64,000 nt of DNA from Paenibacillus sp. FSL H8-0048 (GTDB taxonomy: Bacteria; Bacillota; Bacilli; Paenibacillales; Paenibacillaceae), in the NCBI RefSeq assembly GCF_038002825.1, contig NZ_JBBODF010000001.1, positions 1,798,001 through 1,862,000 on the forward strand. The letters are read 5' to 3'. Below, piece by piece: positions 30,067 through 52,717 of this stretch (within the stretch, counting starts at the first letter, position 1; each line of letters begins with the position of its first letter). The notes below the pieces were generated by a model. The model had not been told where the DNA came from, did no database searches, and was given only the letters and a program-made list of their open reading frames with translations. The position numbers were made by a program, and so were the translations under genes.

Positions 30067-30091
30067 TATGATAGTCTCCTTTTTCTGAAGG

Positions 30092-36300: not shown

Positions 36301-39300
36301 ATCCGCTGCTTCCCGGTATTCTATCCGCAGCCGCACATCCTCCGCTATCCGCTGCACCAGCTCTCCGTTCACCATGTGAAAGGAGGTCCGCAGTGCCTCG
36401 TGCTTCTGTATTAGCAGGTTCAACGCCGTTTCCAGCCGGCAAGCATCCACGGTCCCTTCTGCACGCAGCACCAGTGGAACGTTATATCCGATGCCTTCCT
36501 GCATCATCTGGTGCAGCACATACATCCTCTTCTGGCTGGCTGATGCCGGGTACCCCTCCGCCCGGGGTACAGCGTAAGGAATCGCAGTTCCATCCCCTTT
36601 GCTATCCGAACGGCCATGCTCCATCAGGAATTCAATACGTGCGGCCAGCCGGCTTACTGTCGGCGCCTGGAATATCTCCCGCAGGGGCAGCTCGACCTGA
36701 AAGCTCCGGTTAATCCGCGATATCAGCAACATCGCCTTCAGCGAATGCCCTCCGCTGGCGAAGAAGTGATCGTCCGCTCCGACCTGCTCCCGGTTCAGCA
36801 CCTCGCGCCAGATTTCCGCCAGCTGCTTCTCCGCCGCACTGCCGGGTTCTCTGAACAACACGGCCGGCTCCTCAAGGCTTGCCGGAGCCGGCAACTGCTT
36901 CCGGTCGATCTTCCCGTTCCGCGTTAACGGCAGCTTCGCCAGTGGAACGATGACGGACGGAATCATGTAACCGGGCAGGTGTTCGTTCAGGAAATCCCGG
37001 ATTTCGGGGACAGCGGACGGCCCGGCGCATACCACATAAGCGCACAGATATTTGCTTCCCTCAGGGTCTTCTCCGGCCACGACTGCAGCTTCCGTGACGG
37101 CGCTGCATAGCAGCAGGCTCGTCTCGATTTCACCCGGCTCAACCCGGTACCCCCTAATTTTCACCTGGTTGTCCAGCCGCCCCAGAAAAGCAATATTCCC
37201 GTCCGGCAACCACTTTGCCCGGTCCCCTGTCTTGTATATCCGCTGTCCCGGATGGAAGGGGTCCGGCACGAACCGTTCTGCGGTCAGCTCCGGCCGGTTC
37301 AGGTAACCTCTGGCCAGCCCGTCTCCGCCCACATACAGTTCTCCGGGAACCCCCACCGGCTGCATCTGTCCCCGCGCATCCAGAATATAAGCCGTTGAAT
37401 TGGGAACGGGCTTCCCGATGGGAATCCCGGTGTCATGCTCACCTTGAATGAGATAACAGGTGGAGAAGGTGGTATTCTCCGTAGGTCCGTACAGGTTCAC
37501 TATGCGTAGTCCCGGGCAGGCCTCACGGACCTGCCGGACCTGGCGAACCGGCAGCTGATCCCCGCCCACGAGCAGAGACCGCAGCGGCGCGAACAGCCCC
37601 GGGTCCTCTTCGGCCAGCTGCTGGAACAGCGCCGCTGTCAGCCACAGAAGAGAGATCCCCTTCTCCCGGATGAACATGCCAAGGCGTCCGGCCTGCAGCA
37701 GCGTATCATCTCCGGCTAGATACAAGGGGAGGCCGTTCAGCAGGGAGCCCCATATTTCAAAGGTAACGGCGTCAAATGATGGGGAACCGGTCAGCAGCAG
37801 ACGGTCCTCCGGCTCAATCGCCAGGAAGCCGCCGTCATGAACCAGACGTACCACATTCCGGTGCTCAACCATCACTCCCTTAGGTGTGCCGGTCGACCCG
37901 GAGGTATACATGACGTAGGCTAACCGCCCCGCGCGCTGTTCTTCGTCCTGCTCCATCGGGATGGGGAACTCCGGTATCATGCCGCCGGGTCCGCTTTCCG
38001 CTTCCTGCTGATCCAGCACCAGCGTCTTTAGGCTCCAGGCTGCAGGAGGATTCAGCCCGGACTGAACCAGCAAAATAGATGTGCCACTGTCCTCCAGCAT
38101 GAAGCGGTTCCGCTCCTCCGGATAGGCCGGATCAATCGGCAGATAGGCGGCTCCTGCCTTCAGAATACCCAACAGCCCGATGACCAGTTCAGGTGACCGC
38201 TCAGCGAGAATGCCTACAATGCTTCCGGGTTCCACCCCTACCTGGTGAAGCTGACCCGCCAACCGTTCAGTCTGACGGTTCACTTCGCTATATGTCCACT
38301 GCCGGTCCCCGTAACACAGTGCCGTATGGTCCGGCGTCCGCTTCACTTGTTCTGCGAACAGCTCATGAATGCACTTGTCCGCTGGGTACGGTACTGAAGT
38401 GTCGTTGAACACCTTAAGGATTTCTTCCTGCTCCTGCGGGCCGGTTAATACTAACTCCTCCATTTTTGCCTCCGGGCTTAAGACAATCTGGCGCAATAGA
38501 TTCAGATACATCCCAAGAAGCTGTTTAACCGTCTCTTCGCGGAATAGGTCGGTATTGTATTCTGCCCAGAGGAATGTCCGGGGTCCTTCCTGCCGAACAT
38601 CGAACAAGAGGTCCGTCTGGGTAGCACAGGCGTCCGATTCCAGCTTGGTCTCTTCCAGACCCAGGAACCCCTGCTCTTCTGTTCCTTCCGACACCATGTT
38701 GAACATGGTGCGGAATAGCGGAATCCGGTTATTATCCCGGTCAGGATTCAAGACACGGATTAGCCTTTCGAACGGATAATCTTGCATGTAATAAGCATTA
38801 TCCACCTTATCGTGAACGCTTTTGAGCAAGTCCGTATACTTCAGCCCGTCACTGATCTCCATGCGAACCGCTACCGTATTGACAAAAAAACCTACCGGGT
38901 GATTGAATTCCGGACCGTAATGCCTGCCATTAAACACCGTACCTACCACAATGTCCTCTTGACCGGCAAGCTTATACAGCAGCGTATAAAAAACGGCCAT
39001 CAAACCGGAGAACAGAATCACCCGATTATTCATGCAAAGTATTCGGAGCAACTTGACCAATTCCCCAGGCAACTCAAGGCTCGTAAGTGCACCACTAAAG
39101 CTAAGTTGCACAGGCGGGGGAAAATCGGCAGGTAAATCCAGTACCGGCAGTTCACCCTGGAACTCCTTAAGCCAATAGCGCTCTTGTTCTTTCGTGAATT
39201 CCTCGGAAAAATTCTCCCGCTGCCACCATGCATAAGTGCCGTACTCCAGCTTAAGTGCAGGCAAGTCGGCAGGAATCCCGTCAATTAGAGCATTGTAAAT

Positions 39301-39813
39301 GAGCTTTAAGTCCCGCCATAGAATCTGCAAACTCGTTCCGTCTGCAATGATATGGTGAAGCTTGAGCAGCATTACATACTTCTCTTCCTCCGTCCGGATT
39401 AGCGTAGCCTGGAACAGCAGATCCTCCCCGCTCAGCCGAATTGGATGGTACCAGAGTTCTTCGAGCTGTTCCTGCAGCATGTGGCTGCGCTCACTTAACG
39501 ACTTTACCGACAAATCAGAATAAGTGAATAACTCATCTGTATTCCTTGTGAAAGATTGGCAGGGAGCATTACCTTGCCAGTCCATCACGCTGCGCAATAC
39601 GGGATGCCGCGAGGCCAGCCCGGCCACAGCCTTCTTCATGGCAGCCACCTGCAAATTTCCCGATAATGTTCTGGATGTAACCAGATTCCATACAGAGCTG
39701 TCCGGCAGAATCTGGGATAAGTAATACAGCCGTTCCTGCTGATAGGAAAGAGGATACGTGTCTGCACGGCCTGCAGCTAACAAAGGCGGATACTTCTTAA
39801 CCAGATTTACCAT
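33394..39813 (-). CDS. Nonribosomal peptide synthetase, C-A-T-C-A-T
   Basis: A 2139-residue, two-module NRPS. C1 (about 20-440) has HHIIADG. A1 (about 480-980) has YTSGSTGTPKG; its eye-read pocket residues D-A-F-W-L-G-L-T-F(-K) fit an aliphatic, valine-like substrate. T1 has GGHSLKA. C2 (about 1090-1530) has HHIVTDG. A2 (about 1560-2040) has YTSGSTGKPKG; its pocket, D-V-T-N-F-A-I-I-Y(-K), I cannot assign. T2 has the unusual RGANSIVL around the phosphopantetheine Ser (normally GGxS). There is no epimerase, methyltransferase or thioesterase domain. ATG at 39813 with a GTG just before it. The A1-T1-C2 block is flanked by 119-bp direct repeats. It is predicted to add residues 2 and 3 after the 39853-43059 module. 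Confidence 0.95.
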   Translation of the reverse strand: MVNLVKKYPPLLAAGRADTYPLSYQQERLYYLSQILPDSSVWNLVTSRTLSGNLQVAAMKKAVAGLASRHPVLRSVMDWQGNAPCQSFTRNTDELFTYSDLSVKSLSERSHMLQEQLEELWYHPIRLSGEDLLFQATLIRTEEEKYVMLLKLHHIIADGTSLQILWRDLKLIYNALIDGIPADLPALKLEYGTYAWWQRENFSEEFTKEQERYWLKEFQGELPVLDLPADFPPPVQLSFSGALTSLELPGELVKLLRILCMNNRVILFSGLMAVFYTLLYKLAGQEDIVVGTVFNGRHYGPEFNHPVGFFVNTVAVRMEISDGLKYTDLLKSVHDKVDNAYYMQDYPFERLIRVLNPDRDNNRIPLFRTMFNMVSEGTEEQGFLGLEETKLESDACATQTDLLFDVRQEGPRTFLWAEYNTDLFREETVKQLLGMYLNLLRQIVLSPEAKMEELVLTGPQEQEEILKVFNDTSVPYPADKCIHELFAEQVKRTPDHTALCYGDRQWTYSEVNRQTERLAGQLHQVGVEPGSIVGILAERSPELVIGLLGILKAGAAYLPIDPAYPEERNRFMLEDSGTSILLVQSGLNPPAAWSLKTLVLDQQEAESGPGGMIPEFPIPMEQDEEQRAGRLAYVMYTSGSTGTPKGVMVEHRNVVRLVHDGGFLAIEPEDRLLLTGSPSFDAVTFEIWGSLLNGLPLYLAGDDTLLQAGRLGMFIREKGISLLWLTAALFQQLAEEDPGLFAPLRSLLVGGDQLPVRQVRQVREACPGLRIVNLYGPTENTTFSTCYLIQGEHDTGIPIGKPVPNSTAYILDARGQMQPVGVPGELYVGGDGLARGYLNRPELTAERFVPDPFHPGQRIYKTGDRAKWLPDGNIAFLGRLDNQVKIRGYRVEPGEIETSLLLCSAVTEAAVVAGEDPEGSKYLCAYVVCAGPSAVPEIRDFLNEHLPGYMIPSVIVPLAKLPLTRNGKIDRKQLPAPASLEEPAVLFREPGSAAEKQLAEIWREVLNREQVGADDHFFASGGHSLKAMLLISRINRSFQVELPLREIFQAPTVSRLAARIEFLMEHGRSDSKGDGTAIPYAVPRAEGYPASASQKRMYVLHQMMQEGIGYNVPLVLRAEGTVDACRLETALNLLIQKHEALRTSFHMVNGELVQRIAEDVRLRIEYREAADEAEAGCQVQALIRPFILNQAPLMRAAVIEGKDSSVFLVLDIHHIVTDGVSSGILLRELSRFYEAAATIDPQDASRLQELSRLPETRLDYKDYAAWQQERLGSEALREQEAYWLEQLRGDIPVLNVAADYPRPPVQSFAGDRLSCKADQQLYERLQRTAADNGATLYMILLAGYQVLLSKYSGQEDILVGTPIAGRQHADVQNMVGMFVNTLVMRGYPRGSLSFREYLEEVKAGALGAYEHQEVPFEDLVEKVQMTRDMSRNPLFDTMFALQNMEQSPLVLNGVTFREAEYEYPVSKFDLTLTAEEGEEGLRFEWEYAVKLFKQATVARMAEHYVHILEQVTENPDQRLSAVELATIQEQEEILKVFNDTSVPYPADKCIHELFAEQVKRTPDHTALLFQNESLTYCELDKQVKRLAWRLRDSGIQSGSIVAIIAERSLEMVIGIYAILKAGAAYLPIDPGTPGERLRYMLEDSGTRHVLIHRPEDSSLVDADVTFHLINSLPKDNAAAEEQEELCVNRPDDLAYIIYTSGSTGKPKGVMIEHRSLVNTLLYLQDAYPLTAEGTYLFKTAFTFDVSATELFGWFFQGGRLAILEPGLEREPRGIMEAVRQHKVTHMNFSPSMLDVFLQAVDRRTDMDWDGVEYVFAAGEALKPHVVQSFYERVSGVRLENIYGPTEITIYATAYPTEALDKKGNIPIGRPISNMKAYIVDKYMRLQPPGVAGELCFSGVGLARGYLNQEEMTKEKFVSNPYHPAEMMYRTGDMARWSDDGNIEYLGRLDQQVKVRGYRIEPGEIEQTLLGHPNIRAAVVTIKESSSDLKRLLAYLVLRDEEQEDNWAGYLKRWLPSYMIPEAFVQLKEIPLNASGKADIKRLPDSGAEKNTSFSAPRTMQEIRLIQLLEELLQTGGLGMNDNLFDRGANSIVLVQLAMLLEDEFQTVISIMELMEAPTAEAIFDKISLSARTTGTSILL
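35114..35232. repeat. 119-bp direct repeat, copy 1 (C2-A2 junction of the NRPS)
   Basis: It matches 38318-38436 with one mismatch (A/T at one position). It encodes the linker between C2 and A2 and the first residues of A2 (VFNDTSVPYPADKCIHELF region). Confidence 0.95.
38318..38436. repeat. 119-bp direct repeat, copy 2 (C1-A1 junction of the NRPS)
   Basis: Second copy of the repeat at 35114-35232. It encodes the same linker between C1 and A1. Such near-identity at the DNA level, in domains that otherwise differ, indicates recent recombination. Confidence 0.95.
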
Positions 39814-39852
39814 CACACACTCTCCCTCTTAGGGTTATACGCCGTGTACCTT

Positions 39853-42800
39853 CTATACCACCGAGGCTTGAAATAAAGGTTCGATGATCTTGGCAAGGTC
39901 AGACAAAACCGGCAGATCAAAAAAATCCAGCAGTGAGACGCTGATGCCAAAGGCTTCCTCAATTTCGGTTACAAAACGAATCGTCAGCAGGGAGTTCCCG
40001 CCCAGTTCAAAGAAATTATCTGTAATCCGGATGCCCTCGATATGGAGTACCGCTTCAGTAATTTCAATCAGTTTGCTCTCCACGTAGGTTAGCGGAATAT
40101 CACTTTTCAGAGGATTAGCTATGACTGCCAGACCTGGAGCCGGCAGCGCTCTTATATCTACCTTGCCGTTTGCATTCAGCGGGATTTCGTCCAACTGTAC
40201 GAACGCTGTAGGAATCATATAGGATGGCAGCCATCGACTTAAGAAGCCTGCCCAGTTATCCTCGTGCCCGTCCGGCTGCATGACAAGATAAGCGACCAGC
40301 CGTTTTTGATCGTCCTCATCCTCTTTTACAACCACGATGGCCCTTTTAACCGCCGGATGCATCAGTAGCGTCTGCTCAACTTCACCAGGTTCAATGCGAA
40401 AGCCCCGTACCTTGACCTGCTGATCCATCCGTCCTAAATATTCAAGAATCCCGTTACTCCGCCAACGGGCCAAATCTCCGGTTTTATACATTCGTTCACC
40501 AGGGAAAAATGGGTCTTCCACGAATTTTTCCATAGTCAGTTCATATTGCTTCAGGTAACCGCGGCCAACTCCCCGGCCGGCTAGATACAGTTCTCCCGCA
40601 ACCCCTGGAGGCAGAAGCTGCATATGCTTGTCCATAATGTAGACTCTCATGTTGGAGATAGGTTTACCAATAGGAATACTTGCAGCAGCATCCTCTGTGC
40701 GTGCTGAATAAATAACCGCATAGATGGTCGTTTCCGTCGGCCCGTACATATTCTCCAGCTGCGTGCCTTCCACCCGTTCAAAAAATCTCTTTACCACATA
40801 AGGTTTAAGCGCTTCTCCAACAGAAAAAACGTATTTGACCTGTTCCCACTCCGTACCGGCTCTGCGTTCAGTCGCTTCCAGAAAGGTTGCCAGCATGGAA
40901 GGGGAGAAATTGACATGAGTAATCTTATGTGCTCCAAATGCATCCAGAATACCTCCCGGGTCACGTTCCAGCCCTGGTTCAAGAATCGCCAGCCTGCCCC
41001 CTGCGAAGAACCAGCCGAACAGCTCCGCAATCGACACATCGAACGTATATGTGGTTTTGAAAAGATGTGTGTCTCCGGCTTCAAGCGGATAAGTTTGCTG
41101 TAAATATAACAGGGTATTCACAATAGAGCGGTGCTCCAGCATCACGCCCTTCGGTTTGCCGGTTGAACCTGAGGTATAGATGATATAGGCCAGATCCTCA
41201 GGCTGGTTAACACAGCCGATCTCAGTGCTTTCATCCGTATCCGCATATACCGATAAATCGCCAATCGGATGAATCCTTATCCCCTCGCCCACAAGCTCCG
41301 AGAATTCCGGCTTATGAAGCAGAACATGGCTTGCACCGCTGTCCTCCAGCATATACAGGGCTCTCTCCTTCGGCGTGAGGGGATCGATAGGCAGCACAGC
41401 TCCACCCGCTTTCAAAATGGCGTAAATCCCGATAACCATTTCCAGGCTTCGCTCGGCAATAATTGCTACGATGCTTTCAGCATGAACACCCGAACGGCGC
41501 AAATGCAGTGCAAGCCGGTTGACAAGCCCGTTCATCCCGCGGTAAGTAAGTTGTTGGTCTCGGAATAGGAGTGCCGTACGCTCAGGCTTTTCCTGCACCC
41601 TTTCCCCAAACAGCTCATGGATACACTTGTCCGCCGCATCTCCGGTGGAGGTGGCGTTAAACGATTGAAGGATTATTTCCTTCTCCGCGTCATTAATCAG
41701 TGTCAGATCCTTCAGCAATATCTCCGGGCTGGTCACAATCTGGCTCAACAGATGCTTGTACATATCCAGAAAATGCATAATCGTCTCTTTGCGGAAAAGA
41801 TCGGTATTGTATTCTGCCCAAAGGGCTGTTTGCTCCCCATCCTGCCTTACATCAAACAACAGATCGGTCTGCGCGGATTCACCTTCCGAATCTACAGCCG
41901 ATTCCTCCATACCCGCAAAGCTTAATCTATCCTTCCCGCTTACCACCATATTGAACATGGCGCGGTACAACGGATTGCGGCTGTTCAACCGGTCCGGGTT
42001 AATGGCTTGTACAAGCCGCTCAAACGGAAAATCCTGCATATAATAGGCATCGTTCACCTTACCTTGAACCCTCTTCAGCAGGTCTGCAAAAGACTGTTCT
42101 TCATCTACATTAAGGCGAATAGCTACAGTATTGACAAAGAACCCGGCCATCTGGCTTAATTGAGAGCCGTAATGCCGTCCGTTAAACACCGTTCCGACAA
42201 CAACTTCCTCCTGCCGGGCCAGCTTATGAAGAAGTATATAATAGACGGATAGCAGTCCAGAGAAGAGGATCGCCTTATTATTCAAGCATAGAGCGCGCAG
42301 TGGCTTCAGTAGTTCTTCCGGCAGAATCACCCCTGTCAACGCCCCCTTAAAGCTGACCTGTGCAGGTGCCGGCAAGTCCGTGGGCAGGTCCAGAATGGGC
42401 AATTCTCCCTTGAATTCCTCCAGCCAATAACGCTCCTGTTCCCTCGTGTGTTCCTCGGAGAAAGCTTTGCGTTGCCACTTTACATAGTTACCATAATCGA
42501 GCTTCAACTCCGGTAAGTCCGTTGCCGCAGGATCAAGTAAGGCGTTATAGATATGCTTTAGATCACGCCACAGGAGTTCAAAGGTTGTCGCATCCGAAAT
42601 GATATGATGCAGCTTTAACACGATGTAAAATTCTTGCCCGGCAGTCTGTACCAGATTTGCCTGGAACAGCGGATCGCTTCCGCTAAGCTGAATAGGTATC
42701 CGCCAGGCATCGGACAGCAACTGCTGTATCCCGACCTCCCGACCTTCTCCAGCAGTCAAGTCTGTATAAATAAACAACTCTGAGACATCCCTTGTGAAAT

Positions 42801-43059
42801 ATTGACAGAGTTCGCCTTGTTGCCGTTTAACTATGCATCGCAGCACACTGTGCCTTCTAGCCAGTTCTGCCACAGCCTTGCGTATCGTCGAGACTTCCAG
42901 GGTTCCGGAATATTTACGTACGGATACCCGATTCCAAACCGGGCTGTCCGGCATCAGCTGCGATAAGAAAAATAACCGTTCTTGCTGAAAGGACAGCGGT
43001 GCTGAAGCGGCTTTCTCAGTTATGGCAGGCAAAGAGTACTTTCGTTTCTCCAGAGTCAT
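39853..43059 (-). CDS. Nonribosomal peptide synthetase, C-A-T
   Basis: A 1068-residue single-module NRPS. The C domain (about 20-440) has the active-site motif HHIISDA at 151-157, with Ala in place of the usual final Gly. The A domain (about 470-960) has YTSGSTGKPKG and GPTETTIYAV; eye-read pocket residues D-V-A-N-F-V-M-I-Y(-K) are close to those of A2 in the next protein, so the two may load the same or similar amino acids. The T domain has ELGGNSLLTIRF. Because it begins with a C domain, it needs an upstream donor; the free-standing ACP at 50445-50690 is the obvious candidate. It lies 36-39 bases before the larger NRPS. Confidence 0.95.
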   Translation of the reverse strand: MTLEKRKYSLPAITEKAASAPLSFQQERLFFLSQLMPDSPVWNRVSVRKYSGTLEVSTIRKAVAELARRHSVLRCIVKRQQGELCQYFTRDVSELFIYTDLTAGEGREVGIQQLLSDAWRIPIQLSGSDPLFQANLVQTAGQEFYIVLKLHHIISDATTFELLWRDLKHIYNALLDPAATDLPELKLDYGNYVKWQRKAFSEEHTREQERYWLEEFKGELPILDLPTDLPAPAQVSFKGALTGVILPEELLKPLRALCLNNKAILFSGLLSVYYILLHKLARQEEVVVGTVFNGRHYGSQLSQMAGFFVNTVAIRLNVDEEQSFADLLKRVQGKVNDAYYMQDFPFERLVQAINPDRLNSRNPLYRAMFNMVVSGKDRLSFAGMEESAVDSEGESAQTDLLFDVRQDGEQTALWAEYNTDLFRKETIMHFLDMYKHLLSQIVTSPEILLKDLTLINDAEKEIILQSFNATSTGDAADKCIHELFGERVQEKPERTALLFRDQQLTYRGMNGLVNRLALHLRRSGVHAESIVAIIAERSLEMVIGIYAILKAGGAVLPIDPLTPKERALYMLEDSGASHVLLHKPEFSELVGEGIRIHPIGDLSVYADTDESTEIGCVNQPEDLAYIIYTSGSTGKPKGVMLEHRSIVNTLLYLQQTYPLEAGDTHLFKTTYTFDVSIAELFGWFFAGGRLAILEPGLERDPGGILDAFGAHKITHVNFSPSMLATFLEATERRAGTEWEQVKYVFSVGEALKPYVVKRFFERVEGTQLENMYGPTETTIYAVIYSARTEDAAASIPIGKPISNMRVYIMDKHMQLLPPGVAGELYLAGRGVGRGYLKQYELTMEKFVEDPFFPGERMYKTGDLARWRSNGILEYLGRMDQQVKVRGFRIEPGEVEQTLLMHPAVKRAIVVVKEDEDDQKRLVAYLVMQPDGHEDNWAGFLSRWLPSYMIPTAFVQLDEIPLNANGKVDIRALPAPGLAVIANPLKSDIPLTYVESKLIEITEAVLHIEGIRITDNFFELGGNSLLTIRFVTEIEEAFGISVSLLDFFDLPVLSDLAKIIEPLFQASVV

Positions 43060-43084: not shown

Positions 43085-44236
43085 TCAGGCACGGCTCTCT
43101 TTTCTCATAAGTTCCTCAACAATGATCATCCGCTGAATTTCTGAGGTCCCATCTCCGATTTCGGTTAGCTTAGCATCTCTATAGAACCTTTCCAAAGGCA
43201 AGTCCCTTGAGTATCCGTATCCGCCGAAGATCTGTACCGTATTTTTGGTTACCCGGTTTGCCGTTTCCGAGGCGAACAGCTTAGCCTCAGAAGCTTCTTT
43301 GGTGTATGGCTTACCCTCTTCCTTCAAGCGGACAGCCTTCTCCAGCAGCAGCATGGAAGCGTTGATTCCCATTTCCATATCAGCGAGCATGCCCTGAATA
43401 GCCTGGAACTGGAACAGATATTGGTCGAATTGCTTCCGCTGCCTGACATATTCCAGGCACTGCTTACGGGCTTCCTCGGCAATCCCGAGAGCAATGGCAG
43501 CCATCCCCAACCGGGCAGATACCAAAGTATGATGCAAGATTTTTAAGCCGAAATTCCTTTTTCCAATTAAATGAGTCTTTGGTACCCTCACATGATCAAA
43601 AGTTAACGAGCCCGTATCTGAGCCCCTCATCCCCAGCTTTCTTTCCTTCTTTACACCTGTGGAAGCACCTGGCATGTCCTTTTCCAGGATGAATAGGCTA
43701 ATGCCGAGCGCTTTCTTATCGGGCGCGGTTTTGGCGGCGACAATATAATAGTCAGCCACATTGGCATTGGTGATAAAGGCTTTGCTGCCGGTAATTTCGT
43801 AATAATCGTCCTTTTCCACTGCTGTGGTCATCATGGATGCCATGTCCGAGCCGCTGCCGGGCTCCGTCAAGGCAAATGCGCCTACCTTCTCACCCAAAAT
43901 CATCTGTCTGAGGAACGTCTGTTTCTGCTCCTCCGTTCCGAACGCCTGAATAGGTGTACAGCTTAATGTACTATGCGAGACAAGCGTCATCGCTGTGGAA
44001 GCGCAGATACCGGCTATCCTGCGGATCACTGTAAGATAAACGCTGTAATCAAGCCCCAATCCTTCATAGTTCTGCGGAAAAGGAATGCCTGTAAGTCCGA
44101 TTCGACCCATCTCCTTCAAATTCTCCAGAGGGAAACGTTCACTTTCATCAATCTCCTGGGCAATCGGCGCAACAAATTCTGTTATAAAAGCATCTGTGGA
44201 TTCAAGAACAATCTGACGTAACTGTGAATCGTCCAT
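43085..44236 (-). CDS. Acyl-CoA dehydrogenase family flavoprotein
   Basis: A 383-residue FAD enzyme of the short-chain/butyryl-CoA dehydrogenase type. It shows FALTEPGSGSD, the substrate/FAD region GMRGSDTGSLTFDHVRVP, and the C-terminal YRDAKLTEIGDGTSEIQR. The usual catalytic Glu of this last motif (EGTxxxQR) is Asp here, and the alternative Glu position used by isovaleryl-type enzymes (LVSARLGMAA segment) is not Glu either. With the EtfAB genes in the same operon it could reduce an enoyl thioester or oxidise an acyl/aminoacyl thioester on CoA or ACP. It lies three bases after the AsnB-like gene and 25 before the first NRPS. Confidence 0.92.
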   Translation of the reverse strand: MDDSQLRQIVLESTDAFITEFVAPIAQEIDESERFPLENLKEMGRIGLTGIPFPQNYEGLGLDYSVYLTVIRRIAGICASTAMTLVSHSTLSCTPIQAFGTEEQKQTFLRQMILGEKVGAFALTEPGSGSDMASMMTTAVEKDDYYEITGSKAFITNANVADYYIVAAKTAPDKKALGISLFILEKDMPGASTGVKKERKLGMRGSDTGSLTFDHVRVPKTHLIGKRNFGLKILHHTLVSARLGMAAIALGIAEEARKQCLEYVRQRKQFDQYLFQFQAIQGMLADMEMGINASMLLLEKAVRLKEEGKPYTKEASEAKLFASETANRVTKNTVQIFGGYGYSRDLPLERFYRDAKLTEIGDGTSEIQRMIIVEELMRKESRA

Positions 44237-44239
44237 ATC

Positions 44240-46012
44240 TCACACTCCAAATGTCTTGTGCCATAGCTCCAAAGCGATTAGTGCATGAGCCGTTCGGAAG
44301 ATGGCCAGATTATCAAGCTTCGTGTAATCTCCGGTTTTGTTCAAAAAATCGCTGACCTTCTTCCGGTCAAAATAAGCCGCAATTTTCGAATTACCTGAAT
44401 GCATCAGCTCAAGCGCCATATTTCTTTGCTGGAAGAGAGATTTGGGATCAACGGGAAAAGGAAAAGGCTTCTTCTTCCTGCTAACGATCTCATCCGGGAG
44501 AAAGGCCTTGCTTACTTCTTTCAAGAACCATTTCTCTGTACCGTCTTGGATTTTCAGATGGGAGGGCAGACGCGCTATCTGTTCGACGATCCGATAATCC
44601 AGAAACGGCACCCTTACCTCTACACTGGATGCCATACTCATTTTGTCCTGCCGTTCCAGCATTTCGAGCAAATAGACCTTCAGGAACATATAAAGCACTT
44701 TGTTGATGGTGTCACCTGTACTGAATTGGTTCATCATCCGGTTGATCGCGAGACTCAGACGTTGCCTGTAATGAGTGGATGTCTCCATCGCTGGGTCCAA
44801 CAGACCGGAAACCTCTTCATAATATGGGGACCACGGAAACTGGTTCATCCGGCCGATTGATTGCTCTTGCAAAAAGAAGAAATACCCTCCGAACAGCTCA
44901 TCTGCGCCTTCCCCGGAAATGACAACTGTGGCTTCTGCCTTTACCTTCTGATACAGCAGGTACAGGGACGGTGTTGTCAATTCAACCGGCTTCTCCATAT
45001 GCCAGGTGACCTTCTCCATGATCCCTGAATATTCAGAGGGATCGAGTACATATTCGTGATGAGTCGTCGGCAGGCGTTCTGCGAGCAGGCGGGCATAGTA
45101 TGTATCGCTGTTTTGGAAATTCATCTTTACATTATTGGTGAATTCAATCGAAAACGTGTTGAGGCGGGAAGGTGAAGCGGCAGAAGCCATCGCCGTCAGC
45201 AGGCTGGAATCTAAACCTCCGCTCAGTAAAGAGCCGAAAGGCACATCACTCATCAACCTCATTTGTACCGATTCCGTCAACAGGTCCACGAATTCGTCCT
45301 TCCACTGTTCCAGGGAGCCCGGGGAATGATCCGAATCCAGATTCAGCTCCCAGTAAGGGGCAAGCCGCATTTCACCGTTGATTAAGGTCAGTGTGTGTCC
45401 GGGAGGAACAGCGTATATGTTGCGGAACATAGTTCGCTCATCCAGAATTGCAGTACTGAACAAATATTCGGGAATAGATCCGGGTTCAAGCTGAACAGGT
45501 ACGTCAGGATGTTGTAGAATCGCTTTGATCTCTGAAGCAAATACAAAACAGTGATCGTCCATATAGTAATAAAGCGGCTTCACTCCCATACGGTCACGGG
45601 CAAGAAGCAAGGTACCTCTAGAGGGGTCCCACAAGCCAAAAGCGAACATACCGTTGCACTTCTCAATCCACCCGGTTCCATATTCCTCATAACCATGGAT
45701 AATGACTTCTGTATCACAATCCGAACGAAAGCGATGCCCCTTTTGCTGAAGTTCCACCTTGAGTGCCTTATAATTGAATATTTCACCGTTATAGGTAATC
45801 CAGACTGTGTTATCTTCATTGCACATCGGCTGTTGTCCGAGGCTCAGATCTATGATGGATAGCCTGCGGTGACCAAGCCCCACATGGCCGTCAATATGGG
45901 TTCCGCAGCCGTCAGGCCCCCGGTGGAACATTACATTATTAATGTTTGTCAGTACGTCTTGCGAGACAGGTTGCTCCCTGTTCAAATTATAGATTCCGCA
46001 AATCCCGCACAT
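44240..46012 (-). CDS. Asparagine synthase (glutamine-hydrolysing)-like amidotransferase
   Basis: A 590-residue AsnB-type enzyme. The N-terminal glutaminase domain begins MCGICGIYN, so Cys2 is available as nucleophile after Met removal. The C-terminal synthetase domain has the PP-loop SGGLDSS and RVPFLDYRIVEQIARLP. It activates a carboxylate as acyl-AMP and transfers ammonia from glutamine. It may be plain asparagine synthetase, but its place between the aminomutase and the acyl-CoA dehydrogenase suggests tailoring, for example amidation of the side-chain carboxyl of a beta-amino acid. That use is inference. Confidence 0.92.
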   Translation of the reverse strand: MCGICGIYNLNREQPVSQDVLTNINNVMFHRGPDGCGTHIDGHVGLGHRRLSIIDLSLGQQPMCNEDNTVWITYNGEIFNYKALKVELQQKGHRFRSDCDTEVIIHGYEEYGTGWIEKCNGMFAFGLWDPSRGTLLLARDRMGVKPLYYYMDDHCFVFASEIKAILQHPDVPVQLEPGSIPEYLFSTAILDERTMFRNIYAVPPGHTLTLINGEMRLAPYWELNLDSDHSPGSLEQWKDEFVDLLTESVQMRLMSDVPFGSLLSGGLDSSLLTAMASAASPSRLNTFSIEFTNNVKMNFQNSDTYYARLLAERLPTTHHEYVLDPSEYSGIMEKVTWHMEKPVELTTPSLYLLYQKVKAEATVVISGEGADELFGGYFFFLQEQSIGRMNQFPWSPYYEEVSGLLDPAMETSTHYRQRLSLAINRMMNQFSTGDTINKVLYMFLKVYLLEMLERQDKMSMASSVEVRVPFLDYRIVEQIARLPSHLKIQDGTEKWFLKEVSKAFLPDEIVSRKKKPFPFPVDPKSLFQQRNMALELMHSGNSKIAAYFDRKKVSDFLNKTGDYTKLDNLAIFRTAHALIALELWHKTFGV

Positions 46013-46044: not shown

Positions 46045-47865
46045 TTAGTAGTAATACCAAATCGTATCGTAATCGCGAGAATCCTCACCCATCTGCTCAA
46101 GCTCAGCCAAGTAATCGGCAATGGGCTTGTCTTTGTATATGTAGGTATTGACAGGGGCCATGTATTTCTCCCATGGATAGAACTCATAAATTCTGCTGCC
46201 ATCGCTGTGAATCATAATCACATCATGATCCTGCCATGAATTCAGCTCGTTTTTTCCGAGTGAAGGGATATTAAACACAGGCTTGTCGGTGCGTACGGTT
46301 CCGGGCATGAGCCGCGCTTCCTCTTTCTGCTCCTGCAGCAAGCGGGCGATCGGTACTTTGTAATCCTCTGTCTCCTCTTTCCCCTTCAGATTAAACAGAT
46401 AATACGGCGTGATTCCGATGCTCTTCAGGCTCTCCCGCAAGAAACATGTCTCAAATCTTCTGCTGTTATAGAGCGTATAGACCTGCTGATTGAGGACATC
46501 AATACCAATTCGCTTCAGCTTCCCGACGGCTTCTGCCATCTCCCAGGAGATCTCATAGGCATGTTCGACATGGGTAATGATTGTAATCGTCTGGTGGGGA
46601 GGGTTATGGTAACGTTCCAGTATAGCAAGCAGCTCATCGTCGATTCTCATCGGCATGGTCACGAGGGTCCGCGTGCCAATCCGGATTCGCCGGATATGCT
46701 CCATCTCCCGGAAGCTCGACAAAATCGACTGCAGCTTTGTATTTCCAAGCGTTAACGGATCTCCTCCGGTAATGAGAACCTCATTGATACCGGTATTGCT
46801 CTTGAACCATTCCATTGAGCCCTTCAAATCGGCTGGCAGGGGGTCGGCAATATCCTGATAATCATCGGAGAGTTCCCAGTTCCGCTGACAATACACACAG
46901 ATTTGCGGACACCACAGAAACGGCTTTATGATGGCCACCTTGGGATATCTTCGGGTAATATGCTCTTCCGGCGAAGTATCAGCTTCCCGCATGAAATCAA
47001 GGGCTTCCCTTGAACCGGTTGTTTCATCCAGCATCTTGTGAACATAATTACTGCTCGGGATTACCTGTGCCCGCAGACATGAATCGCTTCCGCCGGATAT
47101 ACGCTCACGATCCATCAGAGACAGATAGAAAGGGGTAATCCCAAAAGCCAGGCCATGCTCGGTAGCTTCGCGGATGCCATGGTCCTCCTCGTCTGATAAG
47201 GCTATGACCGACTGAATATCGCCGCTTTTCCTGTAGATTTTTCTCAGATGCCATTTGTATTCGTTCCAGTCCTCCAGTGAACCGTCCAACTGCTGTAAAA
47301 TAAGGTCTCTTGTCTCGTTTCGTCTGCCGATAATATCCGGCTCCAGTCCCGAACGGTACCCATTCTTCTTCTTAATATACTGGTACTCATCCGTCTTGCC
47401 ATTCAGGTAATGAGAGCGTACAATCGCTGCCTCCCGGCCCTGCAGATGGATAAATTCAGGCACCTCGCGGATACATATGCCGGATTTGGAATAAATGCCG
47501 GATAATCCGATGACCCCCTTATACAGATGCATAATATCCTCCAGGAAGGCATCGCTGATCTCCGGCCACTCGCGTTCCCGCCAATGCGTTGTTGCCAGGT
47601 GGTATAGCACCGTAAGGCAGCTGTGGCCGCTCTTCTTTTCACTGCTCAATGAAATAATTGTCCGGAATACATGGATGCAGTCGCGTGTATTCTTCTTCTC
47701 CAGAGGATGTAGCTGGCAATTCGCATCCATAATGGCCATTTCACACTGGCTGAGATAGGAATAGAGCTGTTCTCTGGCAGCTGAGACTGTCGGGCTGAGT
47801 ACGAATATGCGCAAAATCTCCGGATTGGCATCCAGTAATTCCGATATTTTCTCTCTTGAAGCCAT
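46045..47865 (-). CDS. KamA-family radical SAM aminomutase with long N-terminal extension (glutamate 2,3-aminomutase-like site)
   Basis: A 606-residue protein. Residues ~205-600 form a lysine 2,3-aminomutase-type core: radical SAM CxxxCxxC (CPQICVYC, Cys319/323/326), the SAM-binding GGDPL, and a probable PLP Lys538 in PSLGKNEL. By alignment to lysine 2,3-aminomutase, the two Asp that hold the lysine side chain (D293, D330) are Lys494 (PYYLFNLK) and Asn532 (VFNIP). As I recall, that Lys/Asn pair is the substrate signature of glutamate 2,3-aminomutase, so beta-glutamate is the likely product. The ~200 N-terminal residues are Cys-containing, mainly helical and unrecognised. ATG at 47865 with AAAGGTGAG upstream; GTG at 47880 is an alternative. 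Confidence 0.87.
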   Translation of the reverse strand: MASREKISELLDANPEILRIFVLSPTVSAAREQLYSYLSQCEMAIMDANCQLHPLEKKNTRDCIHVFRTIISLSSEKKSGHSCLTVLYHLATTHWREREWPEISDAFLEDIMHLYKGVIGLSGIYSKSGICIREVPEFIHLQGREAAIVRSHYLNGKTDEYQYIKKKNGYRSGLEPDIIGRRNETRDLILQQLDGSLEDWNEYKWHLRKIYRKSGDIQSVIALSDEEDHGIREATEHGLAFGITPFYLSLMDRERISGGSDSCLRAQVIPSSNYVHKMLDETTGSREALDFMREADTSPEEHITRRYPKVAIIKPFLWCPQICVYCQRNWELSDDYQDIADPLPADLKGSMEWFKSNTGINEVLITGGDPLTLGNTKLQSILSSFREMEHIRRIRIGTRTLVTMPMRIDDELLAILERYHNPPHQTITIITHVEHAYEISWEMAEAVGKLKRIGIDVLNQQVYTLYNSRRFETCFLRESLKSIGITPYYLFNLKGKEETEDYKVPIARLLQEQKEEARLMPGTVRTDKPVFNIPSLGKNELNSWQDHDVIMIHSDGSRIYEFYPWEKYMAPVNTYIYKDKPIADYLAELEQMGEDSRDYDTIWYYY

Positions 47866-47876
47866 AGCCGTTCCAC

Positions 47877-48908
47877 TCACCTTTGTACGGATTTTTGCAA
47901 CAGGTCTGCCAGCGCTTCCTCTACCTCTGCGGCAAGCTCATCCGACTTGCGGTCCGGGTCCTGCACCCGCTGCAATGCTTCTTCGCGGCTGATGATTCCC
48001 TGCCTGACCAGCATGCTCATCTCAAAATCGTAAGGATGGAAGTGATATGTCTCACAATGCTTTTTGATTCCCAGTGAATTGAGCTTACAGTTCGTCGAAT
48101 TCGGGTCGACATCCGTTGGCTTTCTCCATCCTAATGCTCTGATCTCCTGATAGATCACGTTCTCGTCATATCCGATGATCGGAAAGATATTGATCACATA
48201 AGGAAATGGCTTCGTCTTATACTCTGCCGGAGTCAGCATGAGCAGGTCATACAAGCTGTCATTCCCGATCTGCTCGACCAGAGGCTTGAACAGGTTTTTC
48301 CGCAGCCCGAAAGGAATCTTGTTGTCCTGATAAATCAGTTCACTCTCAGACTGGATCAATTGCCCCGGGCTGTTGCCCAGCATGACCATGGGAATGTGCT
48401 TCTCAATAGCTACTCTCAACGCCATTGTCGATACCATACGGATACAAGAGATGCAGATTCCGCTTCCGAACTTGGTGAGATGATCGGGGTAGATATGAGG
48501 GACGCAGCTTTCGGCGAACATCTGATTTAAGGAGCCTTGTCCCGGCTTTACGATCAGATGATCTACATTCAGTGTATTCAGTACTGTGCGCATATTCTGG
48601 AAGGAAGTCTCTGACATAAAGCCGTTGTCGAATGTAACGGCCAGTATGGAAAGCTGATAACGTTCTTGCAGGAGTTTAATTAAATAGGTGCTGTCCTTAC
48701 CGCCACTGTAAGCCACGAGAGCATCATAGCTGCTGCCCTCCAGTGCTTTGCTGACCTGAATGATGTTCTCCAGCTTTTCTTGTATATGCTCTCCCGCTGA
48801 AAAGAGGATTTGTCCTTCGGCCTCCTGGCAATAGTGACACACGCCCTCGGAATCAAAATGAATCTCCGGGAATGTCTCAGGTAATATACATCTCACACAG
48901 CGTTTCAT
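47877..48908 (-). CDS. PP-loop ATPase, N-acetyl-sugar amidotransferase (WbpG)-like
   Basis: A 343-residue adenine-nucleotide alpha-hydrolase-type enzyme. The N-terminus has two CxxC pairs (Cys4/7, Cys24/27; RCVRCILPE and GVCHYC), probably a zinc site, then the PP-loop SGGKDST at 68-74. This arrangement is that of the WbpG/LpsA-like amidotransferases, which adenylate a substrate and add ammonia delivered by HisH/HisF-like partners. No such partners are here, so the ammonia or sulfur source is unknown; the AsnB-like glutaminase two genes on is one candidate. ATG start with GGGAGGG upstream. It probably modifies the peptide or a precursor. Confidence 0.8.
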   Translation of the reverse strand: MKRCVRCILPETFPEIHFDSEGVCHYCQEAEGQILFSAGEHIQEKLENIIQVSKALEGSSYDALVAYSGGKDSTYLIKLLQERYQLSILAVTFDNGFMSETSFQNMRTVLNTLNVDHLIVKPGQGSLNQMFAESCVPHIYPDHLTKFGSGICISCIRMVSTMALRVAIEKHIPMVMLGNSPGQLIQSESELIYQDNKIPFGLRKNLFKPLVEQIGNDSLYDLLMLTPAEYKTKPFPYVINIFPIIGYDENVIYQEIRALGWRKPTDVDPNSTNCKLNSLGIKKHCETYHFHPYDFEMSMLVRQGIISREEALQRVQDPDRKSDELAAEVEEALADLLQKSVQR

Positions 48909-48940
48909 GTAATAGCCCTCCCTTACCTGTATGCCAGTCC

Positions 48941-50440
48941 TCATAACTCAGACCGGTTAATCTTGAAAGTAGCGGTTCTTGGCAGCTCACTCACGAATTC
49001 AATGGAGTGAGGCACCATATAATGCGGAAGATGCTGCCTGCTATACTGAATGACTGCTTCCTTACTTAACATGCATTGATTGCCGCTTATGATAAGCGCC
49101 TTGATCCGCTCGCCGGATTCCTCAACCCAAATCCCAGTAACAGCCACCTCTTCAATCCCATCCATACGGAGCAGTACTTCCTCAATCTCTTCGGGACTGA
49201 TGCGAAACCCCATTGACTTTAGCATCATATCCTTACGGCCTGCAAAATACAGATATCCGTCCCCGTCACGCTTTGCCAAATCACCGGTATAAAGCGCCCG
49301 GCCGCGAAAGCGGCGTTCATTCTGCTCTGGATTGTTCCAGTAGCCAGGCGAAATGAACGCCCCTTCATGAACGATTTCACCCACTTCGCCCGGGGCGCAA
49401 TCTTCTCCCTGCTCATCTAAGATTCTTATCGTTACTCCAGGCAGCGGTTTGCCGATAGACGAGGGTTTGCGCTCGAAATCTTCCGGCGGCAGGCAGGTAG
49501 AACGGAACGCCTCGGTCGTTCCATACATCATATAGAATCTGGTATTGCTCAGAATCTGTCTGAGCCGCATTAAATCATCATGAGGGAACACTTCCCCGAT
49601 AATTGACACATACCGCAAATGCGGATATTGATTCCTGGAGAAAGGAGAATGGCGTTGAAGGAGCATCCGCCAGAATGATGGGACCGCATGAAAACCTGTG
49701 ATGCGCTGGTTCAACATCGTGTTTACAATATCTTGAGGAAACAGCGATTCCTGAAGTACAAGTGTTGCCCCCACGTAAACGGAAGTGAATAGCTGGCTTA
49801 ACGCTCCGTCGAAGGAAAAGGGGGATACACTGATAATCCGGTCCTCTGAATGATTCTCCAGTACCTGTGCCGAAGTAACGGTAGAGTCAAGGAAGATGCC
49901 ATGTGTGACAATGATTCCTTTCGGCTTTCCTGTAGAACCTGAGGTATAAATGATGGCAGCCGGGTCCTCACGGCTAATCCCGCTTACTGGCGTGAAGTGG
50001 TCTGGCAGTCCTTCAATAATGTCATGGAAGCCTCCAGGCGTTAACGGGTCCGAGAAGATGGGGACAACCTCCGCAGGCTCCCCGCTTTTTAAATCCGACT
50101 TATTCCATATACCCTTCTTGGATTCATGCAGAAAGAGCAGCTTCATCCCGCAATCCCGGATGATATGCGCCAATTGCTCCTCCTTGAAATGCGGATTAAG
50201 ATGAACAAATACAACTCCAGCCTTCATCGCACCAAAGATTACTAGCACTTCTTCAACACATTTTGTTGAGAAGATACCGACCCGGTCTCCTTTTTCCACA
50301 CCCATAGACACCAGGAAACGGGCAACCCGATTTGATGCCTCCTCCACTTCACGATAGGTGTAGTGCCGTTCAGCCGCATAGAAGCCCGGCTTGTCCGGAG
50401 TTTCTTCCGCCGTCTTAGTGAGGGCCTCATGGATGAACAT
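48941..50440 (-). CDS. Acyl/aminoacyl-AMP ligase (ANL superfamily), probable ACP-loading enzyme
   Basis: A 499-residue ANL enzyme: IIYTSGSTGKPKGIIVTHG (P-loop), MYGTTEAFRS, YTGDLAKRDGDGYLYFAGRKD and the C-terminal Lys in TATFKINRSEL, which ends the protein. The segment PFSFDGALSQLFTSVYVGATLVL resembles ligases of the prolyl-AMP (PltF/RedM) and exosortase-associated groups. It starts four bases after the ACP stop (ATG at 50440; AAGGAG sits inside the end of the ACP gene), so it most likely charges that ACP. The acid is unknown; a 2-hydroxy acid, proline or beta-amino acid are candidates. The longer open frame upstream overlaps the ACP gene and was rejected. Confidence 0.85.
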   Translation of the reverse strand: MFIHEALTKTAEETPDKPGFYAAERHYTYREVEEASNRVARFLVSMGVEKGDRVGIFSTKCVEEVLVIFGAMKAGVVFVHLNPHFKEEQLAHIIRDCGMKLLFLHESKKGIWNKSDLKSGEPAEVVPIFSDPLTPGGFHDIIEGLPDHFTPVSGISREDPAAIIYTSGSTGKPKGIIVTHGIFLDSTVTSAQVLENHSEDRIISVSPFSFDGALSQLFTSVYVGATLVLQESLFPQDIVNTMLNQRITGFHAVPSFWRMLLQRHSPFSRNQYPHLRYVSIIGEVFPHDDLMRLRQILSNTRFYMMYGTTEAFRSTCLPPEDFERKPSSIGKPLPGVTIRILDEQGEDCAPGEVGEIVHEGAFISPGYWNNPEQNERRFRGRALYTGDLAKRDGDGYLYFAGRKDMMLKSMGFRISPEEIEEVLLRMDGIEEVAVTGIWVEESGERIKALIISGNQCMLSKEAVIQYSRQHLPHYMVPHSIEFVSELPRTATFKINRSEL

Positions 50441-50444
50441 CCCG

Positions 50445-50690
50445 TTACTGCTCCTTGGTCTTTCTTTCGACAAGGCTAACCAGACCATCAATCGTACCAA
50501 AATGATGCATATCCACGTCCTCATCCGACAGTTCAATGCCAAAATTGTTTTCCAGATAGGAAATGATATCTAGCACATCCAGGGAAGTTAGCAGGCCAAG
50601 CTCAAACAGATTCGCAGAGCGGTCCTGTATATCCTCATTTGTGATCTTTTGAATATAAGCCGAAACATCTTCCAGTAATACGTTATTCAT
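50445..50690 (-). CDS. Free-standing acyl/peptidyl carrier protein
   Basis: An 81-residue carrier protein with a four-helix pattern. The predicted phosphopantetheine attachment site is Ser36 in LGLLTSLDVLDII; the residue before the Ser is Thr instead of the common Asp. The sequence is acidic (ELSDEDVDMHH) like other ACPs. ATG start. It lies 26 bases after the EtfA gene and four before its likely ligase. It probably carries the starter unit while the flavoenzyme and perhaps the dehydratase act on it, then passes it to the C domain of the first NRPS. Confidence 0.9.
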   Translation of the reverse strand: MNNVLLEDVSAYIQKITNEDIQDRSANLFELGLLTSLDVLDIISYLENNFGIELSDEDVDMHHFGTIDGLVSLVERKTKEQ

Positions 50691-50716: not shown

Positions 50717-51928
50717 TTAAGATTTAAGTGTCAAGCTTTTCCCCTTCACATACTCCGTAATCCTTGGAATAATCTTCTCTAACTCTCCTACAAATCCATA
50801 AGAAGCATATTGAAAAATAGGAGCGTTGCGGTCAGTATTGATTGCGATTACAGTTGCGGACTTCTCCATCCCTACGATGTGCTGCAGGGCGCCGGAGATT
50901 CCGCAGGCAATGTAGACACGTGGTTTAACCACTTTACCGGACTGTCCAATCTGATGCGATACATCCAGCCAGCCGGCTTCGACAACAGCCCGGGTCGCCC
51001 CGACCTTGGCGCCAAGCGCTTCCGCCAGCGACAGAATTATCGGGAGATTCTCAGCCTTGCCGATCCCGCGGCCTACGGCCACAATAACATCCGAGTCTGT
51101 AAAGTCGCTTAACCAACGCTCAATCTTCCGAACCTCCAATACTTCATAGAACGACTGAGAAGTAGATATATGACCAGACCAATTCTTCAGTTGTCCGCAG
51201 AAGCCTTCGATCTGCTCCGCTGGCTCAAAAGCACCTTCTTTCAAAGTCGCCATTTGCGGTCTGTGCTGTGGCATATGAATACTCGCCATTACCGAACCGC
51301 CAAATGCTGTTCTCGTTGCCACCAGCGTACCCTGCACGCTATCGAGATGAACATCAATACAATCGGCACACAATCCGGTATGCAGTCTTGCCGCAACGCC
51401 GGCCATGATGGAACGCGCATGCCTTAGTCCTCCTGCCAAGACAATTTCAGGCTTCATAATCCCTAACAATTCAGCAATCCATTGAATGCGAAGATCCTCG
51501 GCGTAATAGCCAATACCTTGCTGTTCCACGAACCATAGCTCGTCCACACCATACCGGGCGAACTCGCTGGCAAGCTCATGTGTATGCTCACCGATAAGAA
51601 TGGCATAGATTTTCAGATCACTTTGCGCCTGCAGCCGCCTCGCAGCTCCAATGACTTGAAGAGCGGATAAGGATAGTTTGTCATCACGGGATTCGAGATA
51701 CAGGCAGATGCCTTTACATTCTTGCCCTGAGCTTGTCTGCATCCCAGCATCTTGTTCGTCCTGCTCATTGAAGATTGCTTCCATGGGACATGTATCCTTA
51801 CAGACACCACATTGAAAGCATACAGATTCGTCTATAATCACCCTTCCATCGCTGACAGTAACAGCCTCAAACAAACAGACTGCCTTACACTTCAAACAAT
51901 AGCTGCACTTGGACTGTATAATCTTCAT
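50717..51928 (-). CDS. etfA: Electron transfer flavoprotein alpha subunit with N-terminal 2[4Fe-4S] ferredoxin domain
   Basis: A 403-residue protein. Residues 1-60 form a bacterial ferredoxin domain with two CxxCxxCxxxC sets (Cys8/11/14/18 and Cys37/40/43/47). Residues ~75-395 are EtfA, with the C-terminal FAD-binding region AVGRGIGKAENLPIILSLAEALGA and IACGISGALQHIVGM. EtfA with a fused ferredoxin is known from anaerobes such as the caffeyl-CoA reductase complex of Acetobacterium. There the ETF bifurcates NADH electrons between an enoyl-CoA and ferredoxin. Here it could make the low-potential electron needed by the dehydratase activator 20 kb downstream in the same operon. It lies 12 bases after etfB. 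Confidence 0.92.
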   Translation of the reverse strand: MKIIQSKCSYCLKCKAVCLFEAVTVSDGRVIIDESVCFQCGVCKDTCPMEAIFNEQDEQDAGMQTSSGQECKGICLYLESRDDKLSLSALQVIGAARRLQAQSDLKIYAILIGEHTHELASEFARYGVDELWFVEQQGIGYYAEDLRIQWIAELLGIMKPEIVLAGGLRHARSIMAGVAARLHTGLCADCIDVHLDSVQGTLVATRTAFGGSVMASIHMPQHRPQMATLKEGAFEPAEQIEGFCGQLKNWSGHISTSQSFYEVLEVRKIERWLSDFTDSDVIVAVGRGIGKAENLPIILSLAEALGAKVGATRAVVEAGWLDVSHQIGQSGKVVKPRVYIACGISGALQHIVGMEKSATVIAINTDRNAPIFQYASYGFVGELEKIIPRITEYVKGKSLTLKS

Positions 51929-51940: not shown

Positions 51941-52717
51941 TCACAATTGCAGTACATGAGATACAACCTCCATAAATTCACTTGGATTACACTCATCAAA
52001 AAATTTCGTGGAATTTACTCGCTGGTGATTTTTTTCACAATTAACGGTATGAAGCACTTGGGTTGGCGAGCCTGACTTACCCACATTAGCAGAATTCAGC
52101 GGCAGATCTTCAGCTGACCATATCGTTATTTCTGCCCGGGCAGCTGCTATTCTTCCCCGGATAGATGGTATTCGTGGAGTATTGCAGCTTTTTCTTACAG
52201 CTAACAATGCAGGAGTGGGCAGCTTAACAACCAGCCTGGACTCTTCGTCTGCTTTTTCAATAAGGACCGATTGGGGATGAAGGGCGTTAATTTTCTCTAC
52301 TCCGATGATATGCGGAATGCCAAGAAGCTCGGCAATGCCAGGTCCTACCTGCCCCGTCTCCCCGTCAACGGATTGTTCTCCTGTAATAACGATTCCGAAA
52401 CTGCCCAGCTTCTGTATGCCCGCTGCAAGAATGCAGGAGGTTGCATAGGTGTCAGAGCCGGCAAACTGTGGTGAAGATAATAATACCGCTTCATCTGCGC
52501 CCATCCCCAGCAGTTCTCTTAATTGCTCCTCACATTTCCGGGGTCCCATGGACAGGCAAGTAATGTGTCCGCCATATTGTTCCTTCAGACGAAGTGCTTC
52601 CTCTAATGCATTTAAGTCATTGGGATTGTTGAGAAGGTGATAAGCCTCCCTGTCAAACTCACTATCTGCACTCGCATGAATATCCGGTACCTGTTTGATG
52701 CATACGACGATTTTCAT
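51941..52717 (-). CDS. etfB: Electron transfer flavoprotein beta subunit (bifurcating-type motif)
   Basis: A 258-residue EtfB. The N-terminus MKIVVCIKQVPD and the AVRKSCNTPRIPSIRGRI segment are typical. The nucleotide loop reads GEQSVDGETGQVGPGIAE, resembling the DGDTAQVGP motif of electron-bifurcating EtfB proteins rather than the DDxxNQTGQ of mitochondrial-type ones, so NADH-linked FAD is expected. The C-terminal ~40 residues (after SAEDLPLN) are less usual, with KNHQRVNSTKFFDECNPSEF. It is the first gene of the 16-gene operon; GGAGGG precedes the ATG and a candidate promoter lies about 35 bases upstream. Confidence 0.93.
   Translation of the reverse strand: MKIVVCIKQVPDIHASADSEFDREAYHLLNNPNDLNALEEALRLKEQYGGHITCLSMGPRKCEEQLRELLGMGADEAVLLSSPQFAGSDTYATSCILAAGIQKLGSFGIVITGEQSVDGETGQVGPGIAELLGIPHIIGVEKINALHPQSVLIEKADEESRLVVKLPTPALLAVRKSCNTPRIPSIRGRIAAARAEITIWSAEDLPLNSANVGKSGSPTQVLHTVNCEKNHQRVNSTKFFDECNPSEFMEVVSHVLQL

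Follow-up and report, generated by a model that had tools for sequence, protein, structure and literature searches.

The window, a stretch of 64,000 nucleotides from Paenibacillus sp. FSL H8-0048, encodes a long KamA-family radical SAM/PLP aminomutase with a glutamate-type signature (46045..47880, minus strand; identified by open reading frame, profile scan and alignment). Judged by sequence comparison, its most likely reaction is the conversion of L-glutamate to beta-glutamate (3-aminoglutarate), a reading to which we give a probability of about 0.62. The active-site residues match those of the enzymes that convert glutamate to beta-glutamate, and the peptide of the surrounding gene cluster may therefore start from beta-glutamate. 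If this is true, the long proteins are a second lineage of enzymes, branching deeply, that make beta-glutamate, and one branch of their clade is a predictable marker of peptides starting with a beta-glutamate-derived unit.

A long KamA-family gene and its cluster

A GTG start at 47880 overlaps the stop codon of the upstream gene and gives 611 codons; an alternative ATG at 47865 gives 606. Residue numbers are counted here from the ATG, and 5 is added to count from the GTG (Lys494 becomes 499 and Asn532 becomes 537). The protein matches the KamA model TIGR00238 at 289.7 bits, against a curated cut-off of 199.2, and is the single KamA protein above cut-off in the whole genome. Its best-scoring substrate-specific model is that of glutamate 2,3-aminomutase (EAM, TIGR04368), whose type enzyme we take to be that of Clostridioides difficile; the score is 208.1 bits, and the curated equivalog cut-off is 650. 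The models for lysine 2,3-aminomutase (KAM, TIGR03820) and arginine 2,3-aminomutase (RAM, TIGR04468) give 156.6 bits (cut-off 525.4) and 148.6 bits (cut-off 600). Because 208 bits stand against 650, the protein is not callable as a TIGR04368 member, and filing it in the EAM family was rejected. Its signature and model scores also led us to reject a place among the lysine or arginine enzymes, the pocket not being Asp/Asp and the signature not HTRDT.

The core is preceded by an N-terminal extension of ∼190 residues, which aligns with the extensions of long relatives and has no Pfam match at E 0.01. The closest named relatives are from Paenibacillus, the best from P. tepidiphilus (73%). A PDB sequence search at E 0.01 returned a sole match, lysine 2,3-aminomutase 2a5h (E 3.4e-32, residues 199-514 counted from the GTG). 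The SAM cluster cysteines had been predicted to be retained, and the radical SAM motif CxxxCxxC is indeed present as CPQICVYC (C319, C323, C326), followed directly by the signature residues Gln327 and Arg328 (46888..46911, minus strand; sequence and alignment).

The neighbouring genes are all on the minus strand. In reading order they are EtfB (51941..52717), EtfA with an N-terminal ferredoxin domain (50717..51928), an acyl carrier protein (ACP, 50445..50690), an AMP-forming ligase with the A4-motif Asp (SFDGAL; 48941..50542, true start probably near 50445), a PP-loop ATPase (47877..48944), KamA itself, an AsnB-like glutamine-hydrolysing amidotransferase (44240..46012), an acyl-CoA dehydrogenase family member (43085..44236), a nonribosomal peptide synthetase (NRPS) module C-A-T (39853..43059), an NRPS of two C-A-T modules (33394..39816), a stand-alone thioesterase (32448..33353), a 2-hydroxyacyl-CoA dehydratase/double-cubane-type subunit (31339..32460), a second 2-hydroxyacyl-CoA dehydratase-type subunit (30092..31327), an acyl-CoA dehydratase activase (29302..30117) and a MATE exporter (27875..29290). 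The Etf proteins, the ACP and the AsnB-like protein were assigned by profile and Pfam scans, and the NRPSs, thioesterase and exporter by domain scan. The activase scores 272 bits with TIGR00241 (cut-off 125); both dehydratase subunits fall below family cut-offs, as does the PP-loop ATPase, which resembles N-acetyl sugar amidotransferases (WbuX-like; TIGR03573, 140 bits, cut-off 203). A literature search, of partial coverage and thus no proof of absence, found no known product or description of the cluster.

The cluster is common to several Paenibacillus species, and its order is kept in their loci as far as the contigs and the open reading frame listing reach; that listing drops overlapping frames, so that the ACP, WbuX-like, EtfB or acyl-CoA dehydrogenase gene is missing from some lines. 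The ACP and EtfB are seen in four Paenibacillus loci (L011, L012, L013 and L016), and in two Paenibacillus genomes (G216 and G090) the thioesterase, dehydratase pair, activase and exporter follow. A Spirochaetales metagenome-assembled genome (MAG) keeps the order from the ACP to both dehydratase subunits, with one NRPS gene and no adjoining Etf genes. In a Desulfobacteraceae MAG a KamA protein 57% identical to that of the window is found without the cluster neighbours; this cluster-type gene (L020, 7676-9514) lies beside genes for a polysaccharide deacetylase, a FemAB-like protein and an MBOAT protein, with a distant AsnB-like gene.

Several neighbours merit mention in their own right. The PDB matches of the ligase include beta-aminoacyl-ACP synthetases at ∼1e-45; the closest of all its matches is gramicidin synthetase. 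Relatives of the PP-loop protein at 26-27% identity lie inside NRPS-type or condensation-domain genes of Roseovarius pelagicus and Streptomyces sp. NBC_01216 (L066 and L067), and in the Streptomyces strain asnB is two genes upstream. The dehydratase-type pair with its activase (29302-32460) within an NRPS cluster recurs in two Paenibacillus genomes, and the Spirochaetales MAG has both subunits. The acyl-CoA dehydrogenase (43085-44236), EtfB and ferredoxin-fused EtfA (50717-52717) make up an anaerobic-type acyl reduction/oxidation set in a biosynthetic cluster; the best PDB match of the dehydrogenase is 5ol2_C, from what we take to be an electron-bifurcating system. Within the NRPS genes (33394-43059), an unusual code read by eye, DVxNFxxIYK, is common to the first and third adenylation domains, and domain 2 has the valine-like DAFWLGLTFK.

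Five-residue signature, descent and distribution

In KAM, Asp293 and Asp330 presumably hold the lysine side chain, and in EAM we assume Lys/Asn in their place; the latter pair agrees with the 14 EAM rows aligned here. The original prediction read Lys494 and Asn532 of the window protein as replacing these aspartates. This is upheld by five signature columns (R305, Q327, R328, K494 and N532 in the window protein, ATG numbering), though the column of Asn532 is alignment-dependent. RQRKN occurs in 15 of 15 long proteins, both the six of cluster type (window included) and the nine that stand alone, and in all 14 canonical EAM rows. It is found in none of the 12 KAM rows, which all read HTRDD, and in neither RAM row (HTRDT, 2/2). 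The EAM rows, namely L024 from Romboutsia weinsteinii (702 bits) and 13 Bacillota proteins, all exceed 650 bits; 11 of the 12 KAM rows lie above the lysine cut-off, the remaining one at 515 against 525.4 bits, and both RAM rows lie above theirs. The five residues offer an easy means of separating glutamate-type from lysine-/arginine-type KamA proteins, including those that carry the family name alone, if the glutamate reading is right.

Three further KamA rows read RQRKN (L075), HTRDD (L029) and RFREA (L074). L075 (5563-7683) is a 706-residue KamA-annotated protein from a Parabacteroides plasmid that scores below the KamA cut-off, and L074 (739-1824) is a KamA relative below every specific cut-off.

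The Lys494 codon (46384..46386, minus strand, position calculated from the 47865 ATG) falls in the column of KAM Asp293 in the L-INS-i alignment and in the alignment to 2a5h, where it lies on the Asp of YYIYQCD; the latter alignment stops short of the second Asp. Asn532 (46270..46272, minus strand) occupies the second-Asp column, that of KAM Asp330, by its N-x-P motif in the L-INS-i alignment and in hhalign to EAM, and hhalign to KAM disagrees. Both residues are kept in all rows of an 11-row cluster-type alignment from which L015 and L016 (near copies) and L022 (partial) are excluded. The spacing of 38 against 37 residues noted in the window protein proved general: Lys and Asn are 38 apart in 15/15 long proteins and 37 apart in 14/14 EAM rows, and the two aspartates are 37 apart in 12/12 KAM rows.

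In a tree that excludes L029, a group of the long proteins plus a single Bacteroidota protein separates from EAM, KAM and RAM at 100/100, and within the long clade a cluster-type group is supported at 100/99. A second tree adds four KamA rows (one TIGR03822, two below every specific cut-off and one not scanned) and excludes L029, L074 and the near copies L026, L041, L044, L046 and L060. Here all 26 RQRKN rows fall on one side of a 100/98 branch, recovered in 100% of 200 bootstrap trees, with a warning from the program of long branches; the signature therefore follows descent. The window protein lies outside the canonical EAM clade, though on the EAM side of this branch.

Long proteins were found in 10 of 296 genomes of the window's order at E 1e-60, one of them a fragment, and in 10 of 299 genomes of a Bacillota set at 1e-100, the window's own genome being counted both times. 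The loci of the nine other Bacillota carriers contain no further open reading frame matching any window protein. We guess that the carriers of stand-alone long proteins are anaerobes.

In the class of G306, seven of ten genomes have the long protein without EAM and the other three have EAM without the long protein. In the class of G502, the long protein occurs in 2 of 97 genomes, neither with EAM; EAM is found in 73 at 1e-180, 66 of these above cut-off, and 22 genomes have neither enzyme. Two of those 22 share a genus with both long-protein carriers, and neither enzyme is therefore essential. Canonical EAM is thus absent from nine of nine long-enzyme genomes in two Bacillota classes, and G577 likewise carries the long protein without an EAM above cut-off. 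The probability of such a lack of overlap by chance is 0.008 in the class of G306 and 0.059 in that of G502, figures whose true weight is less because relatedness was ignored and which include several incomplete genomes. It looks as though the long enzyme replaces canonical EAM in these Bacillota, one glutamate 2,3-aminomutase for another.

The glutamate-type reading of the original prediction therefore stands in part. The five-position signature, a strongly supported branch that does not divide the long proteins from EAM and the lack of overlap in two Bacillota classes speak for it; against it, the EAM score is 208 of 650 bits, and the Lys/Asn pair is common to the whole long clade and found outside peptide clusters too.

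The pocket and alternative readings

The substrate could instead be glutamine or an ACP-bound Glu/Gln unit, with beta-glutamine or the thioester made directly and Lys494 and Asn532 bonding to the amide. Amidotransferase genes flank the aminomutase on both sides, and proteins of the long clade, with their additional N-terminal region and shorter loop after Asn532, may differ from EAM in the pocket. We nevertheless consider this rather unlikely: the nine stand-alone proteins, at loci without other matches to window proteins, have the same signature, the genomes of stand-alone relatives lack canonical EAM, and action on a carrier-bound substrate is not known to us for any KamA enzyme.

A comparison of 24 columns that discriminate EAM from KAM (using 10 KAM rows and excluding L028, L029, L073, L074 and L075) gives only mild support to an EAM-like window protein. 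The window protein equals EAM at 10, KAM at 3 and neither at 11, one of them a gap (p 0.046). The cluster-type majority equals EAM at 10, KAM at 4 and neither at 10, and the stand-alone majority EAM at 11, KAM at 5 and neither at 8 (p 0.105). The 11 columns of neither type would suit another acidic substrate, for example 2-aminoadipate or aspartate, and the Lys/Asn pair by itself indicates just a likely anionic or polar side chain. All five signature positions are as in EAM, however, with the spacing off by one residue only, and a substrate of this kind seems to us quite unlikely.

The PLP lysine is probably Lys538, in the sequence NIPSLGK (46252..46254, minus strand). Pairing both Asn532 and Lys538 requires a one-residue shift of NIPSLGK against NAPxGxGK/DAPGGGGK, and the alignments differ on it. 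With hhalign to EAM, Asn532 and Lys538 fall on the corresponding Asn and Lys, with low confidence in these columns; to KAM, FNIPS is placed on FAVPT instead and neither residue is supported; to RAM, FNIP falls on FSVP, yet Lys538 falls on the RAM lysine. One MAFFT alignment has Asn532 in the expected column and Lys538 outside its own.

AlphaFold2 models reach a mean pLDDT of 70.3 (full-length) and 74.4 (core). Against 2a5h, the full-length model aligns 358 residues with Z 37.0 (4.1 Å), and 14.2 for the next among the matches listed; the core model gives Z 37.7 over 338 residues at 4.0 Å, and 13.4 for the next among the matches listed. The fold thus matches 2a5h; around Asn532 and Lys538 pLDDT is mostly <50 in both models, and the structural alignment (VIA-align) reports ranges, not residue pairs.

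These results also bear on whether the protein has departed from aminomutase chemistry, for example with PLP not bound as in KAM. The loop of its PLP lysine is one residue shorter, the KAM profile and one MAFFT alignment put Lys538 off the PLP lysine, and the end of the protein is unlike that of KAM. On the other side, N-x-P-x-[LI]-G-K is found in 15/15 long proteins, window included, hhalign places Lys538 on the Lys of both EAM and RAM, and the range aligned on 2a5h extends beyond Lys538 in both models, which together make such a departure very unlikely. That the protein makes beta-lysine or beta-arginine is most improbable of all, even though most known roles of KamA enzymes in antibiotic biosynthesis are of the lysine/arginine type and no solved relative was found apart from the lysine enzyme 2a5h, since Lys replaces Asp at the side-chain site, RQRKN stands against HTRDD/HTRDT, and both models score under the glutamate model.

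Proposed route and known systems

From the sequence, signature, clade and gene order we infer the glutamate substrate and each chemical step of the following route. SAM bound to the cluster on C319/C323/C326 would yield the 5'-deoxyadenosyl radical, and PLP on Lys538 would carry the amino group. Arg328 would hold the alpha-carboxylate. The gamma-carboxylate would be bound by Lys494 and Asn532, which stand where KAM has the two Asp that hold the amino group of lysine.

In Paenibacillus and in one spirochaete MAG the gene has a carrier protein and ligase on one side and NRPS genes on the other, which suggests a carrier-bound starter unit. The adjacent AMP ligase could load the beta-amino acid onto the stand-alone ACP, with amidation by the AsnB-like and PP-loop enzymes either preceding or following this step, and the carrier-bound unit could then serve as a starter for the first condensation domain of the NRPS. 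The ACP, ligase, PP-loop and AsnB-like neighbours suggest additional tailoring, probably on a carrier protein, and beta-glutamine is a possible building block.

More tentatively, the whole may be a novel NRPS starter made by oxygen-sensitive chemistry. The long-clade aminomutase would supply beta-glutamate, the ligase would transfer it to the dedicated ACP, an amide or amidine would be formed from the free carboxylate by the AsnB-like and PP-loop enzymes, and the oxidation state would be adjusted by the acyl-CoA dehydrogenase/Etf-ferredoxin set and the activated dehydratase pair. Long-clade proteins elsewhere would then serve as a different beta-glutamate synthase, in place of canonical EAM. 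Taken as a whole, this combination is in our view less likely than not. For Moorella, a glutamate 2,3-aminomutase, which may be of either the canonical or the long type, has been described together with beta-glutamate as an osmoprotectant (PMC7835215). This fits a housekeeping role of such enzymes.

Like EAM (TIGR04368), the window protein has a KamA radical SAM core and RQRKN, and EAM is its best-scoring specific model. It differs in length (611 residues against 427 in the Romboutsia EAM), in score (208 bits against 650), in belonging to a separate clade and in a loop ahead of the PLP lysine that is one residue shorter. It shares with KAM (2a5h/TIGR03820) the fold (Z 37.0, 358 aligned residues) and the SAM cysteines, whereas its pocket is Lys/Asn rather than Asp/Asp and its signature RQRKN rather than HTRDD. 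Arginine 2,3-aminomutase (TIGR04468, blsG), which is used in antibiotic clusters, is of the same family, but its signature is HTRDT and the window protein scores 149 bits with its model against 600.

To our knowledge, a beta-glutamate-derived starter unit is known only from incednine-type polyketides. Beta-glutamate is an intermediate of incednine, and the glutamate 2,3-aminomutase is presumed to be the radical SAM protein IdnL4; deletion of IdnL4 confirmed its involvement, and its in vitro activity has not been observed (PMC11284099). IdnL4 has also served as a search marker (PMC10662134). The starter route of incednine (IdnL4-IdnL3-IdnL1) resembles that proposed here in that the beta-glutamate of a carrier-bound starter is presumed to come from a radical SAM aminomutase (PMC11284099). 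The aminomutase gene of the window is likewise near genes for a stand-alone ACP and a ligase, in an order that is kept. The likeness is drawn from the description of IdnL4. Incednine is an actinomycete polyketide with the decarboxylase IdnL3, whereas no PLP decarboxylase such as IdnL3 was found among the 16 genes scanned here (26997-52717). Unlike incednine, the window cluster has amidotransferase, PP-loop, acyl-CoA dehydrogenase and dehydratase genes, and its amidotransferase, dehydrogenase and dehydratase genes imply steps beyond incednine-type ones.
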